This document shows, one piece after another, positions 47,193 through 58,228 of a DNA stretch of 61,065 bases. Under the pieces are notes generated by a model, which did not search any database, had not been told where the DNA came from, and was given only the letters and a program-made list of their open reading frames with translations. Position 1 is the first letter of the stretch, and each line of letters begins with the position of its first letter. A program made the position numbers and the translations under genes. Where the stretch lies: IMG/VR virus record IMGVR_UViG_3300031758_000076, positions 1-61,065 of that record. One strand, written 5' to 3'. Source of the stretch: a virus.

Positions 47193-47240
47193 ACAAATCT
47201 CCGTAATATTACTTTAACAGAAACCTATATGGTACTACAG

Positions 47241-47578
47241 TGGACCCGAGGGGAATCGAACCCCTGTCCGAGATTGCTTCCTATTAAGGATTTATGTGTG
47301 TAGTCAGTTATTGAAATTCATTCAGTTCTCGTTAACTAACAAACGTAAACTGAACATAGAACCGAAGTATCACCTTGAATACGGTTCCTATCAAGGCTAT
47401 ACCACATGAATAAACAAATTAACCCTATGTGGTCATCTCAGATTAATTCGTCAGGCTGCAATTAAGCAGCGAGGGCTAAATTATAGTTGCCAGTTAGTAT
47501 TTTTGGTCTGTTTTACTCGTCTTACCAAACGAGACACAACGCTTAATCATCTACACCCCGTCGAAGCCGGTCGGGCCC
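47241..47578 (-). ncRNA. ssrA: Phage transfer-messenger RNA (tmRNA)
   Basis: 338 bases. The 5' end GGGCCCGACCGGCTTCGAC and the 3' T-arm/acceptor (GGGGTTCGATTCCCC then CGGGTCCA) pair as the alanine-tRNA-like domain; G3 pairs with U, the identity mark for AlaRS. The terminal CCA is not encoded. The tag frame reads GGC AAC TAT AAT TTA GCC CTC GCT GCT TAA (47491-47462): GNYNLALAA with a glycine resume codon, ending in the LAA degradation signal. It frees stalled ribosomes and labels the product for proteolysis. A host tmRNA would normally suffice, so a phage copy may replace a degraded one or alter the tag. Confidence 0.95.
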
Positions 47579-55411: not shown

Positions 55412-56008
55412 ATGTCGTTTACTCGTGAACAAATCGAAGCCGCTGTTAAGAAAAAAGGATATGCGTGGTTCGAAGGAGCAAAAGATTTTGATGTGAACAT
55501 TGTAGGAATTCGTAACGCTTCAACTGGCAAGAAAGTCACCAACGTGTTTGATGATTGGATGACAATTTCATATAAAGAAGGTGGTGTTTGGAAATTTCAT
55601 ATCTGGCCATGCACAACTGATCCCGGTACCAAAGCCGTCAGAGAATTCAGTAATCCAAATGGTGTGGCACGATTAGTACCAAATCAGTATCGTGGGTCGC
55701 ATATTATTAGATTGCATCAAGGAAAGTATGAAGCATTGGGTCAGCAAAAGCCCGTCAAAGTATATCGTGACAAAAATAAAGATATGACATTTGATGAAAC
55801 AACCATCCAAGAAGGTTTATTTGGTATCAATATTCATCGTTCCAACCCCAAAACCGAATCAGAATTTGTGGAAAATTGGAGCGAAGGGTGCCAAGTATTT
55901 AAACGTGTAAAAGATTTTAATTTATTTATGCAGATATGTAATAAAGCAAAAGATATACATGGAAATAGTTTTACCTACACGCTTTTAACCTCAGCGGATA
56001 TTGGATAA
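55412..56008 (+). CDS. L,D-transpeptidase-like (YkuD-type) cell-wall protein
   Basis: 198 residues. The second half carries GINIHRSNPKT (H142) and WSEGCQVF (C160), matching the His ... SxGC catalytic pattern of YkuD-type enzymes. The N-terminal half is a small mixed domain. No signal peptide, so it would need a holin or act from outside. Enzymes of this kind cross-link or trim peptidoglycan. It fits the cassette; a role as endolysin or as cell-wall modifier is possible. Confidence 0.72.
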   Translation: MSFTREQIEAAVKKKGYAWFEGAKDFDVNIVGIRNASTGKKVTNVFDDWMTISYKEGGVWKFHIWPCTTDPGTKAVREFSNPNGVARLVPNQYRGSHIIRLHQGKYEALGQQKPVKVYRDKNKDMTFDETTIQEGLFGINIHRSNPKTESEFVENWSEGCQVFKRVKDFNLFMQICNKAKDIHGNSFTYTLLTSADIG

Positions 56009-56365: not shown

Positions 56366-56394
56366 TTGACAAAAAACACCCCGCTGAGTATAAT
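56366..56394 (+). promoter_or_regulatory. Perfect consensus sigma-70 promoter inside a terminator
   Basis: TTGACA (56366-56371), 17 bases, TATAAT (56389-56394). It fully matches the bacterial consensus. The -10 is the loop of the terminator hairpin (56375-56414), so it starts transcripts at about 56401, in the 3' arm. Confidence 0.88.
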
Positions 56395-56417
56395 AAAAAA
56401 CTCAACGGGGTGTTTTC
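56375..56417 (+). terminator. Terminator at the end of the lysis-like operon
   Basis: AACACCCCGCTGAG (56375-56388) pairs with CTCAACGGGGTGTT (56401-56414), one mismatch, followed by TTC. On the minus strand the stem is also followed by a T run, so it may work in both directions. The loop holds TATAAT. Confidence 0.85.
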
Positions 56418-56451
56418 TTTATATCTTATATAGTTATTAGTTTACATCCCC

Positions 56452-56480
56452 TTGACAAATCATGTTGATGGATGTATGTT
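56452..56480 (+). promoter_or_regulatory. Sigma-70-type promoter before the first structured RNA
   Basis: TTGACA, 17 bases, TATGTT (56475-56480), preceded by CCCC and followed by AAAT: CCCCTTGACAAAT is repeated at 56664-56676. Confidence 0.72.
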
Positions 56481-56486
56481 ACAAAA

Positions 56487-56667
56487 GTTGATTGACAATA
56501 CGGGGTTGGTGGTCCTGCTTCCCAAGACGGGGGTAGTCAACCATCTGGACTAGCACATGGTTGGCAGGGTTGAGTCGCTAGTCACGACAATAGAGGCACC
56601 TATTACAAGGCACAAGAACGGCGGAATTACACATATGACAACAGCCGGAACCGTTCACCACCACCCC
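56487..56667 (+). ncRNA. Structured RNA of about 170 bases, unknown family
   Basis: Closed by GGGGTTGGTGGT (56502-56513) with ACCACCACCCC (56657-56667), an 11-pair stem with one bulge. Inside, CAACCAT / ATGGTTG form a 7-bp hairpin. It starts about 7 bases after the promoter -10 and its 3' arm touches the next promoter. There is no tRNA T-arm and no reading frame of interest. No known family was recognised. Confidence 0.55.
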
Positions 56668-56696
56668 TTGACAAATAATACTCGATAAGTTATACT
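56668..56696 (+). promoter_or_regulatory. Near-consensus sigma-70 promoter
   Basis: TTGACA (56668-56673), 17 bases, TATACT (56691-56696). Directly abuts the closing stem of the upstream structured RNA. Confidence 0.78.
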
Positions 56697-56702
56697 TAAA
56701 GA

Positions 56703-56776
56703 GTTGACCGACAGTAGAAAGAACTACCACTACACAAGTGAGTGACCCTCCGATAAGGGGAAGGTAGTCGGTCCCC
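56703..56776 (+). ncRNA. Small structured RNA before tRNA-Glu
   Basis: GACCGAC (56706-56712) pairs with GTCGGTC (56767-56773) and TACC (56725-56728) with GGTA (56763-56766), giving a compact fold of about 70 bases, tRNA-sized but without T-arm or anticodon. It begins 7 bases after TATACT. Ends just before tRNA-Glu. Confidence 0.5.
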
Positions 56777-56780
56777 CAAC

Positions 56781-56852
56781 GCCGCGTTCGTCTATCGGTT
56801 AGGACATGGCCCTTTCAAGGCCAGAAGGCGGGTTCGATTCCCGCACGCGGTA
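56781..56852 (+). tRNA. tRNA-Glu(TTC)
   Basis: 72 bases. Acceptor GCCGCGT/ACGCGGT (G1-U72 wobble), D-arm GTCTATCGGTTAGGAC, anticodon loop CTTTCAA, T-arm CGGG-TTCGATT-CCCG. CCA not encoded. Reads GAA/GAG. Confidence 0.92.
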
Positions 56853-56904
56853 CTTCTCGTCAACTTCGTAGAGTGATTTGACGTTAAATTGAGAACTCTA
56901 CCGC

Positions 56905-57030
56905 CGGGCCTATCTGGCGCAGAGATAGGTGCTTGGCAACGTGTCGGATGTTGCACAAGGTTGGAGGGGAACAGTTCTAGACTGTGCGGGTAACCTTGGA
57001 TACTTAGAACGTATCCGAATCACCTTCCCC
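56905..57030 (+). ncRNA. Structured RNA with four tandem hairpins
   Basis: Perfect stems in order: CCTATCT/AGATAGG (56909-56929), GCAAC/GTTGC (56936-56954), AAGGTT/AACCTT (56957-56997) enclosing ACAGT/ACTGT, and GGATAC/GTATCC (56998-57016). GGGGAA in the third loop can pair with TTCCCC at 57025-57030. No tRNA features. The density of exact stems exceeds chance in this AT-rich genome. Family unknown. Confidence 0.55.
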
Positions 57031-57036
57031 ACCTTT

Positions 57037-57107
57037 TGGCCTCTCGTCTATCGGTAAGACAATTGACTTTGGATCAATGAAGCGTGGTTCGATTCCACGG
57101 AGGCCAG
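57037..57107 (+). tRNA. tRNA-Gln(TTG)
   Basis: 71 bases. Acceptor TGGCCTC/GAGGCCA, discriminator G, D-arm GTCTATCGGTAAGAC, loop CTTTGGA (TTG), T-arm CGTGG-TTCGATT-CCACG. Reads CAA/CAG. Confidence 0.92.
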
Positions 57108-57113
57108 TTTTAC

Positions 57114-57182
57114 GCGGTTTTGGTGTAATGTAGCACGGTTGGCAACCAGCTGACATGTCCGGTGCAAGTCCGTGAAACCGCT
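57114..57182 (+). pseudogene. tRNA-like element, degenerate or atypical
   Basis: 69 bases. Acceptor GCGGTTT/AAACCGC is perfect, the D-arm (GTGTAATGTAGCAC) and T-loop (TGCAAGT, one change from TTCAAGT) are recognisable. The anticodon stem GTTGG/CTGAC is possible but the loop CAACCAG has A where U33 is needed, and the T-stem has a mismatch. CACGG/CCGTG and GCAC/GTGC give alternative folds. Either a decaying tRNA or a tRNA-like RNA with another task. Confidence 0.6.
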
Positions 57183-57185
57183 CTA

Positions 57186-57258
57186 GGTAATATATTATGT
57201 GAGTTTTCCAGTGTTCTCTGAGCCTTGATATACTCTCCAATGGACATAATATATTACC
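57186..57258 (+). ncRNA. RNA hairpin with perfect 15-bp stem
   Basis: GGTAATATATTATGT (57186-57200) and ACATAATATATTACC (57244-57258) are exact complements with a 43-base loop. It lies between the tRNA-like element and tRNA-Ala and may guide processing of the tRNA transcript. Confidence 0.6.
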
Positions 57259-57263
57259 AAAAT

Positions 57264-57334
57264 GGGCTCGTAAGCTAACGGGAAACTGGGGCCTTTGCAA
57301 GGCTCACTTGTGGGTTCGATTCCCACCGAGTCCA
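57264..57334 (+). tRNA. tRNA-Ala(TGC)
   Basis: 71 bases. Acceptor GGGCTCG/CGAGTCC with the G3-U70 identity pair of alanine tRNAs, discriminator A, loop TTTGCAA (TGC), T-arm GTGGG-TTCGATT-CCCAC. Reads GCA and others. Confidence 0.92.
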
Positions 57335-57335
57335 C

Positions 57336-57364
57336 TTGACAAAATAAGTTCAACTGGTTAAGTT
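57336..57364 (+). promoter_or_regulatory. Sigma-70-type promoter inside the tRNA cluster
   Basis: TTGACA (57336-57341), 17 bases, TAAGTT (57359-57364). Starts one base after tRNA-Ala and would start transcription a few bases before tRNA-Leu. Shares CACTTGACAAAA with the promoter at 56366. Confidence 0.65.
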
Positions 57365-57376
57365 ACAAAGAGTTAC

Positions 57377-57449
57377 GCCATCGTAGCCCAACGGCAGAGG
57401 CGGGAGACTTAAAATCTCCATAGTGTGGGTTCGAATCCCACCGATGGCA
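57377..57449 (+). tRNA. tRNA-Leu(TAA) with short variable loop
   Basis: 73 bases. Acceptor GCCATCG/CGATGGC, D-arm GCCCAACGGCAGAGGC, loop CTTAAAA (TAA), variable region only about 5 bases, T-arm GTGGG-TTCGAAT-CCCAC, discriminator A. Bacterial leucine tRNAs normally have a long variable arm, so the body is atypical. Confidence 0.88.
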
Positions 57450-57460
57450 CTTGTAGTAAT

Positions 57461-57534
57461 GCATCCCTAGTGTTAACGGTTAGCACAATAGACTTTTAAT
57501 CTATTAGGTCTGGGTTCGAATCCCAGGGGATGCA
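57461..57534 (+). tRNA. tRNA-Lys(TTT)
   Basis: 74 bases. Acceptor GCATCCC/GGGATGC, loop CTTTTAA (TTT), T-arm CTGGG-TTCGAAT-CCCAG, discriminator A. Reads AAA/AAG, the main lysine codons in this AT-rich genome. Confidence 0.9.
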
Positions 57535-57544
57535 CTGAAATAAC

Positions 57545-57660
57545 GTGCCATACATAGGGATGGCTTGGTCGCAGGACAACCCTGTGGCGACGGTGTGAGT
57601 AGTGCGCACTACTCCCGTGGTAACGACGGCTCCATTCCAGTAAAAGGGGAATCGTTACAA
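57545..57660 (+). ncRNA. Structured RNA with four hairpins
   Basis: Perfect stems GCCAT/ATGGC (57547-57564), GTCGC/GCGAC (57568-57591), GAGTAGT/ACTACTC (57597-57614) flanked by ACGG/CCGT, and GTAACGA/TCGTTAC (57620-57658) enclosing ATTCC/GGAAT. Little sequence is left unpaired. Lies between tRNA-Lys and tRNA-Ile with no tRNA features. Family unknown. Confidence 0.58.
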
Positions 57661-57665
57661 ATTTA

Positions 57666-57740
57666 CCGTCCTGAGCCAGCTAGGTTGAAGGCGTCCGTCT
57701 TATAAGCGGAATATGCTGGGTTCAAATCCCAGAGGGCGGA
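57666..57740 (+). tRNA. tRNA-Ile(TAT)
   Basis: 75 bases. Acceptor CCGTCCT/AGGGCGG, D-arm GCCAGCTAGGTTGAAGGC, anticodon stem TCCGT/GCGGA with loop CTTATAA (TAT), T-arm CTGGG-TTCAAAT-CCCAG, discriminator A. It reads AUA directly, a rare arrangement in bacteria, which use lysidine-modified CAT tRNA. Confidence 0.82.
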
Positions 57741-57756
57741 CTAGTTATGTGAGAAT

Positions 57757-57830
57757 GGTCCTTTAACTCAGTTGGTTAGAGTGCTCCGCTCATAACGGAA
57801 GAGTCGTGGGTTCAAGTCCCACAGGGACCA
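57757..57830 (+). tRNA. tRNA-Met or tRNA-Ile2 (CAT)
   Basis: 74 bases. Acceptor GGTCCTT/AGGGACC, D-arm CTCAGTTGGTTAGAG, loop CTCATAA (CAT), T-arm GTGGG-TTCAAGT-CCCAC. The body (GGNCC start, TTCAAGT loop) resembles E. coli tRNA-Ile2 more than elongator Met, so lysidine modification to read AUA is plausible. Confidence 0.85.
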
Positions 57831-57854
57831 CTGCTTTTTGATAATTGTATTAAC

Positions 57855-57938
57855 GCTGCGGTCGCCTAACGGTTGATGGCCCTAGTTTTGTAAACTAGCA
57901 CATAAGAAACATTGTGGGTTCGAATCCCACCCGCAGCT
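57855..57938 (+). tRNA. tRNA-Thr(TGT) with long variable region
   Basis: 84 bases. Acceptor GCTGCGG/CCGCAGC, loop TTTGTAA (TGT), variable region of 15 bases, T-arm GTGGG-TTCGAAT-CCCAC, discriminator U. Threonine tRNAs normally have a 4-5 base variable loop, so the body is unusual. Reads ACA and others. Confidence 0.82.
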
Positions 57939-57954
57939 TTGTAGTATGATGTAT

Positions 57955-58028
57955 AGAGGTGTGGGCTAAAGGCTAGCCGCTTCGTTTGGGACGAAGACAT
58001 CAAGTGAGTTCGATTCTCACCACCTCTA
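57955..58028 (+). tRNA. tRNA-Pro(TGG)
   Basis: 74 bases. Acceptor AGAGGTG/CACCTCT, loop TTTGGGA (TGG), T-arm GTGAG-TTCGATT-CTCAC, discriminator A. The A1-U72 pair is uncommon. Reads CCA and others. Confidence 0.88.
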
Positions 58029-58031
58029 CTT

Positions 58032-58152
58032 AAAATGTGTGTTGACTTATGGGCATCCACTTGTATGCCGAAGAGGACACGATACTAGGACGCTAGTACA
58101 CCGGAGTCCTCACAAGTACAGAAGAATTTGTCACTCTTCTGCACACATTTTT
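58032..58152 (+). ncRNA. Structured RNA with pseudoknot potential
   Basis: Closed by AAAATGTGTG (58032-58041) with CACACATTTT (58142-58151). Inside: GGCAT/ATGCC (58052-58069), GAGGAC/GTCCTC (58073-58111) enclosing ACTAG/CTAGT, and CAGAAGA/TCTTCTG (58119-58141). The loop of the first hairpin, ACTTGT (58059-58064), can pair with ACAAGT (58112-58117), forming a pseudoknot. The 3' end runs into TTTTT. No tRNA features. Confidence 0.62.
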
Positions 58153-58154
58153 AC

Positions 58155-58228
58155 GGACAATTAGCTCAGCTGGTTAGAGCATCGCTTTTACACAGCGAGG
58201 GTCGGCGGTTCGAATCCGTCATTGTCCA
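58155..58228 (+). tRNA. tRNA-Val(TAC)
   Basis: 74 bases. Acceptor GGACAAT/ATTGTCC, D-arm GCTCAGCTGGTTAGAGC, loop TTTACAC (TAC), T-arm GGCGG-TTCGAAT-CCGTC, discriminator A. Last gene of the cluster. Confidence 0.92.

Follow-up and report, generated by a model that had tools for sequence, protein, structure and literature searches.

The window analyzed here is the whole of IMG/VR virus record IMGVR_UViG_3300031758_000076 (61,065 bases), which contains myovirus baseplate and SbcC-like genes and carries, near its right end, ten tRNA genes called by ARAGORN on the plus strand (56781–58228). A sequence-only reading of this array had proposed that five structured RNA segments are interleaved with the tRNAs, and the five do occupy most of the space between them. 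The proposal holds for two of these segments, S3 and S6, which are new RNA families established by covariation in related phages; it is weakly supported for S1, S2 and S5, for which we found no relatives. The tRNAs and the two families are arranged as follows:

56781–56853, plus strand, tRNA-Glu(UUC)
56856–57035, plus strand, S3 conserved structured RNA family (covariance model, covariation, per-sequence helices)
57036–57108, plus strand, tRNA-Gln(UUG)
57264–57335, plus strand, tRNA-Ala(UGC)
57377–57450, plus strand, tRNA-Leu(UAA)
57461–57535, plus strand, tRNA-Lys(UUU)
57666–57741, plus strand, tRNA-Ile(UAU), as assigned by ARAGORN
57757–57831, plus strand, tRNA-Met(CAU)
57855–57938, plus strand, tRNA-Thr(UGU)
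57955–58029, plus strand, tRNA-Pro(UGG)
58030–58154, plus strand, S6 conserved structured RNA family (covariance model, covariation; closing stem AAAATGTGTG/CACACATTTT)
58155–58228, plus strand, tRNA-Val(UAC)

Because minimum free energy (MFE) scoring is blind to pseudoknots, we sought relatives of the array. The protein encoded just upstream (55412–56008; endolysins are among its PHROG matches, as a weaker one) retrieved 59 IMG/VR loci. In several of these the tRNA genes form a syntenic array that follows a common order (Glu, Gln, Ala, Leu, Lys, Ile, Met, Thr, Pro); the adjacent tail-like protein, used as query, retrieved no relatives. S3, S6 and a third element, S4a, were first detected in relatives by blastn of the gap segments, and further members were found with DNA patterns from the first alignments and confirmed by covariance models R2 (S3) and R1 (S6). 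Among the new contigs returned by a tRNA-free S3 pattern, three (L185, L186 and L194) are real members and the rest, scoring below 19 bits or unscored, were rejected; the rejected contigs that were scanned for tRNAs carry none. An S3-pattern match in a bacterial genome (L159) was discarded as chance, as the site looks like a cold-shock protein gene. The two models matched nothing convincing beyond tRNA arrays, and blastn against INPHARED found neither S3 nor S6, the whole-region matches there being tRNA genes. A scan of Rfam 15 gave no gathering-level match for any of S1–S6 and, for the five proposed segments, none below that level either; sub-gathering matches on the upstream terminator hairpin and on tRNA antisense strands were set aside as chance or mirror hits. 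An open reading frame (ORF) scan of the S segments found short ORFs only and no convincing gene, in agreement with the earlier claim that the five lack a coding frame. The further claim that they share no sequence with one another was borne out by a repeat scan, beyond tRNA repeats and promoter pieces.

Covariance model R2 places S3 in 22 contigs with 12 distinct sequences, 177–188 nt long. Its 5′ end, CGTCAA-CTTC-GTAGAGT-GAT-TTGACG-TTAAA...ACTCTAC, is a classical H-type pseudoknot formed by the helices CGTCAA/TTGACG and GTAGAGT/ACTCTAC. The third segment of the sequence-only reading had omitted this 5′ part and is in fact longer (56856–57035). Across phages, the first helix occurs as CGTCAA/TTGACG, CGTCAG/CTGACG or CGTCC/GGACG, and the second (A2) is mostly rewritten from phage to phage with its pairing kept. 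A second, shorter pseudoknot, AAGGTT/AACCTT, and several hairpin or long-range helices follow; this pseudoknot is less certain than the first, because it is fully paired, as aligned, in only some members. A pooled ten-sequence MAFFT alignment puts A2 wrongly in a divergent subgroup, and we therefore counted covariation on a seven-sequence alignment. There, 88.1% of pair cells are standard and 19 pairs are doubly changed, against at most 47.5% paired cells and 8 doubly changed pairs when partners are slid by 1–3 columns, and in none of the shuffles is the paired fraction, the number of doubly changed pairs or the covariation score reached. Relatedness among sequences can by itself lift them above shuffles, and a structure taken from one member tends to beat slid versions on paired cells; doubly changed pairs are the safer measure. 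Swapping A2 arms between phages was only moderately discriminating (67% of own pairings and 29% of cross pairings had at least 7 bp), because several phages have an identical arm.

A tRNA starts 0–1 nt after S3 in 12 of the 12 distinct sequences (tRNA-Gln in 11), and tRNA-Glu lies at most 4 nt upstream in 9; in the window, S3 begins 2 nt past tRNA-Glu and runs up to tRNA-Gln. The upstream neighbor in L142 and L185 is instead a short coding-like stretch. S3 is neither a group I intron, given the lack of an Rfam match, nor a coding gene, its longest closed ORF being 16–39 amino acids. Nor is it the phage's transfer-messenger RNA (tmRNA), which is located at 47240–47578 on the minus strand; that gene encodes the tag GNYNLALAA, which also occurs in the tmRNA of L004 and L006.

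S6 was found by covariance model R1 in five contigs. Its closing stem, AAAATGTGTG/CACACATTTT, becomes TAGATGTGTG/CGTACATCTA in L015 and L018, and its 3′ hairpin is either CAGAAGA/TCTTCTG or CAGAAAA/TTTTCTG. The loop of this hairpin contains a GTCA that can pair with an invariant TGAC beside the closing stem; as both partners are invariant, covariation is uninformative here and the pairing is a prediction. A second pseudoknot does covary, as ACTTGT/ACAAGT, ACCGA/TCGGT and ACTGA/TCAGT. Over the five sequences, two of which align poorly in the central part (P3, P5 and P6), 86.8% of cells are paired, compared with at most 46.1% for slid partners, and 9 pairs are doubly changed, compared with at most 6. 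In the window, as in L142, S6 takes up the entire space from one tRNA to the next, and its core is kept next to differing tRNAs (Val, Thr and Ser). The compensatory changes in related phages that the sequence-only reading had proposed as a test thus exist for S3 and S6, above slid and shuffled controls, whereas no homologs of S1, S2 or S5 were found in which to look for them. Comparative evidence establishes both families. The computations show two RNA families with covarying helices, set flush against tRNAs, that do not code for protein and have no counterpart in Rfam. S3 and S6 are almost certainly conserved structured RNAs.

Signals that could govern their transcription lie at the head of the array and within it:

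56373–56416, plus strand, terminator-like hairpin with 17-nt arms and a T-rich tail (inverted repeat, from sequence), closing the upstream gene and separating it from the tRNA array
56452–56480, plus strand, promoter P1, TTGACA-17-TATGTT, upstream of S1 (promoter scan)
56487–56498, plus strand, leader motif GTTGATTGACAA, common to array promoters of relatives
56668–56696, plus strand, promoter P2, TTGACA-17-TATACT, upstream of S2 (promoter scan)
57336–57364, plus strand, weak promoter-like TTGACA-17-TAAGTT, below the promoter-scan threshold

The last of these has a counterpart, TTGACAAA, in the same place after tRNA-Ala in L015 and L018. At tRNA-array promoters, both here and in L010, L149, L173, L175, L178, L179, L180 and L183, the leader motif or a variant of it occurs 10–30 nt downstream of the −10 box; TTGA(C/A)AA follows 16 of 82 promoters, mostly array promoters, as against 3% of random 60-nt pieces. 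We take this motif to resemble the boxA of rRNA operons, an element that supports antitermination across long untranslated RNA, and a boxA-like leader would suit long untranslated tRNA arrays.

Our preferred explanation, to which as a whole we give a probability of about 0.5, is that S3 and S6 are trans-acting phage RNAs freed by tRNA maturation. Both would share transcripts with the tRNAs, made from sigma-70-type promoters that belong to the phage. In precursor tRNAs, RNase P cuts the 5′ ends and RNase Z or exonucleases the 3′ ends, so that an RNA lying flush between two tRNAs is released without signals of its own. Since S3 abuts a tRNA and S6 fills a gap between tRNAs, this processing could free both, the upstream tRNA being trimmed at its 3′ end by RNase Z or exonucleases and the downstream one cut at its 5′ end by RNase P. 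Compact pseudoknots would protect the freed RNAs. These would then bind a host protein or ribonucleoprotein and so act in trans, with counter-defense or the takeover of host RNA metabolism as the likeliest purpose. That S3 and S6 are excised stable RNAs is likely; that they act in trans is an evenly balanced proposition. Three observations weigh against this explanation. The next tRNA is 91 nt from S6 in L015 and the previous one 74 nt away in L006, so flush S6 ends are not universal; we found no target, binding partner, host-RNA similarity or antitoxin similarity for S3 or S6; and the steady position of S3 next to tRNA-Gln would also be explained by a role in cis.

Such a role is the strongest competitor. 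As cis-acting spacers, the segments would insulate the folding of neighboring tRNAs or direct adjacent processing, with S3 serving as a leader for tRNA-Gln and the excised piece being waste. The constant tRNA directly after S3, present even where an ORF lies upstream (L142 and L185), fits this. However, many tRNAs of the same arrays are 2–10 nt apart with no spacer, S3 in L018 has no adjoining tRNA-Gln, and the S6 core is conserved next to three different tRNAs. Covarying pseudoknots over 125–185 nt would also exceed what an insulator needs. We therefore regard a purely cis-acting function as rather unlikely.

A different kind of element lies in the gap between tRNA-Gln and tRNA-Ala, where the sequence-only reading had missed two elements (S4a and, after it, the hairpin S4b), as it had the pseudoknots of S3 and S6:

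57114–57182, plus strand, S4a degenerate tRNA-Gly-like RNA (sequence alignment; degenerate T-arm)

S4a occurs in three phages: the window, L185 (9542–9613, 98.6% identity) and L015 (7456–7529, 87.8%). Its 5′ half aligns with the tRNA-Gly adjoining S3 in L018, with which it has the acceptor stem and D-arm in common. It retains a 7-bp acceptor stem and the D-stem and lacks one D-loop G, U33 and a normal T-loop; its T-stem has a fixed mismatch. ARAGORN does not call it as a tRNA, and it does not match Rfam RF00005. The glycine identity elements of tRNA are G1-C72, C2-G71, G3-C70, C35, C36 and U73, and by sequence these look intact in S4a. S4a is likely a conserved degenerate tRNA-Gly that may still be chargeable with glycine and is unlikely to take part in translation. 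It is a tRNA-Gly derivative that probably cannot translate and, possibly, a non-translational tRNA. The Glu-Ala gap of L009 (16463–16540) holds a tRNA-Gln-like sequence, which has an abnormal T-loop, GGGGCAGTACCACC, and is uncalled by ARAGORN; L010 has a normal tRNA-Gln there.

The clear derivation of S4a from tRNA-Gly raises the question of whether the segments at large are relics, that is, decayed tRNAs, introns or debris that merely look structured. The remaining segments of the window bear on this point:

56499–56667, plus strand, S1 candidate structured RNA between P1 and P2 (closing stem GGGGTTGGTGGT/ACCACCACCCC; folding energy)
56703–56776, plus strand, S2 candidate cloverleaf-like RNA with no T-loop (folding energy)
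57186–57258, plus strand, S4b hairpin with a perfect 15-bp AT-rich stem, GGTAATATATTATGT/ACATAATATATTACC
57545–57660, plus strand, S5 candidate structured RNA (stems, folding energy)

The first segment of the sequence-only reading opens with the leader motif (56487–56498) and stops right where the −35 box of P2 begins (56668), and S2 is closed by a 7-bp stem, GACCGAC/GTCGGTC (56706–56712/56767–56773). We scored MFE against dinucleotide shuffles, with random 125-nt pieces of the window as background (mean z −0.2, s.d. 1.1; 6.7% at or below −2). The z-scores were −5.1 for S6, −4.0 for S4b, −2.3 for S2, −2.1 for S3, −1.8 for S5, −1.7 for S1 and −0.8 for S4a, and those of the ten tRNAs ranged from −2.0 to −4.4. 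S6 and S4b stand apart on this measure, S2 and S3 are intermediate, and S5, S1 and S4a fall inside or close to the background; the advantage of S1 and S5 over shuffles is modest, and energy by itself does not establish S1, S5 or S4a. S1, S2, S5 and S4b had no relatives, and no homologs with compensatory changes, in the loci retrieved or by INPHARED blastn of the region, a result that sampling may explain and that includes no pattern search for S1, S2 or S5. S1, S2 and S5 are therefore weakly supported as structured RNAs. These modest energies (S1, S5 and S4a), the lack of relatives (S1, S2, S5 and S4b) and one gap in L042 that holds a tRNA missed by ARAGORN speak for decay. For S3 and S6, the idea is refuted by covariation far above controls and the lack of tRNA similarity, and even S4a, at 87.8–98.6% identity, is not in free decay. 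As a general account, relics are improbable.

The S1 slot, between the array promoter and tRNA-Glu, holds different folded sequences in other phages: one closed by GGGGTTGGT/ATCAACCCC and similar stems in L006 and L009, with a CCAGAGTGGGT core common to L149, and yet another closed sequence in L175. The slot is therefore conserved, whereas what fills it changes. When the inter-tRNA gaps of 22 loci were clustered, many further groups emerged, including a conserved non-coding element of ~200 nt, GCAGGACGAGTCTTACTCGG...GGACAACATCTTTCCCGC, which occupies the Gly-Thr or Gly-Leu gap in eight contigs and is not in the window:

L175 6397–6650, L178 8235–8484, L180 5000–5128 and L181 4641–5077, array orientation, Gly-Thr/Gly-Leu gap element

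Among gaps without a long ORF, 31% have z ≤ −2, compared with 9% of matched background (Mann–Whitney p = 3e-6), in a set that is non-independent, as homologous segments recur, and in which at least one gap (L042 1793–1863) holds the missed tRNA. Because other RNAs occupy the same slots in relatives, the interleaving is a feature of a phage lineage, and S1, S2, S5 and S4b are probably lineage-specific occupants of these slots. The arrays of relatives hold other elements as well. Their tRNA-Leu(UAA) seems to be split by a group I intron (L018 10262–10704 and L010 12069–12423), with an Rfam match to group I introns at L018 10439–10629 and a gap of similar sequence in L010, and small genes inside arrays may, by sequence, encode HNH-like or similar endonucleases (L009 16958–17452, L015 8042–8545 and L018 10866–11593). 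The intron beside the tRNA-Leu halves, these putative endonuclease genes and the presence of segB in the T4 tRNA cluster would suit intron-like or endonuclease-associated RNAs invading tRNA arrays, but S3 and S6 are found once per record, always at a single syntenic position in a given genome, leave the tRNAs uninterrupted and fit no intron model, which makes mobile elements very unlikely.

The sequence-only reading had likened the segments to RNAs C and D of phage T4. These two, also called species 1 (RNA C) and species 2 (RNA D), are small stable RNAs with no known function that adjoin the T4 tRNA cluster, annotated at 70908–71171 of NC_000866 and flush with tRNA-Arg at one cluster end. The likeness in position stands, and homology does not: neither R1 nor R2 matches them significantly (best score 4.9 bits at RNA C, E = 1.4), and blastn against RNA C and RNA D gave only 8-nt words, one 18-nt match at 78% and tRNA T-arms. 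RNA C has a true T-arm, whereas S3 and S6 have none; the T4 RNAs sit at a single cluster end, whereas S3 and S6 are interleaved among tRNAs; and stability has been reported for RNA C and RNA D, whereas S3 and S6 are known here from sequence alone. GOLLD and ROOL are ornate, pseudoknotted RNAs of phages and prophages, with no known function, that often lie near tRNA islands; both assemble into nanocages, and many GOLLD members are longer than 800 nt (PMC12286853). S3 and S6, at 124–188 nt, are far smaller and match neither family in Rfam, and their likeness to these RNAs, as to RNA C and RNA D, is one of position only. Uncharacterized structured phage RNAs near tRNAs were thus already known; new here are the number, small size, pseudoknots and flush interleaving, and in the open-license literature we found no account of small pseudoknotted RNAs interleaved with the tRNAs of phage arrays.

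As to function, the roles that the sequence-only reading had suggested for the segments (decoys, regulators or defense-blocking RNAs) are hypothetical. Phage RNAs have been shown to counter host defense. The pseudo-ToxI of phage phiTE is a non-coding RNA akin to a pseudoknot antitoxin that blocks a defense toxin by mimicry (PMC3475682). Phage tRNAs act against retron Eco7 (PMC11555353), and tRNA-rich phage regions serve counter-defense (PMC11555353, PMC10264068). S3, with its H-type pseudoknot at the start, resembles pseudo-ToxI and type III antitoxins in fold type only. Antitoxin RNAs are tandem repeats, whereas S3 is single-copy, larger and without an Rfam family, and our repeat scan of the window found no tandem short-pseudoknot repeats. 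Unlike counter-defense tRNAs, S3 and S6 are not tRNAs, and S4a, although tRNA-like, is missing features that decoding requires. Counter-defense is the leading guess for S3 and S6 because of these precedents, and taken by itself it is less likely than not. Bolder still, and on balance doubtful, is the notion that the tRNA array is an expression and processing platform, in which a conserved core (S3 and S6) and an interchangeable set (S1, S2, S5, S4a and the slot RNAs of relatives) would be excised by tRNA enzymes and, as RNA mimics, would block proteins of host defense or of translation control.

For GOLLD and ROOL no function is known, and the annotation of T4 RNA C and RNA D goes no further than small stable RNAs; S3 and S6 add further families in a like place. 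They are small and single-copy, with defined edges; their predicted ends are directly testable, and the alignments and covariance models R1 and R2 make both families searchable. If S3 and S6 are excised and stable, tRNAs are not all that phage tRNA arrays deliver, a point that matters for the question of why large phages retain them.

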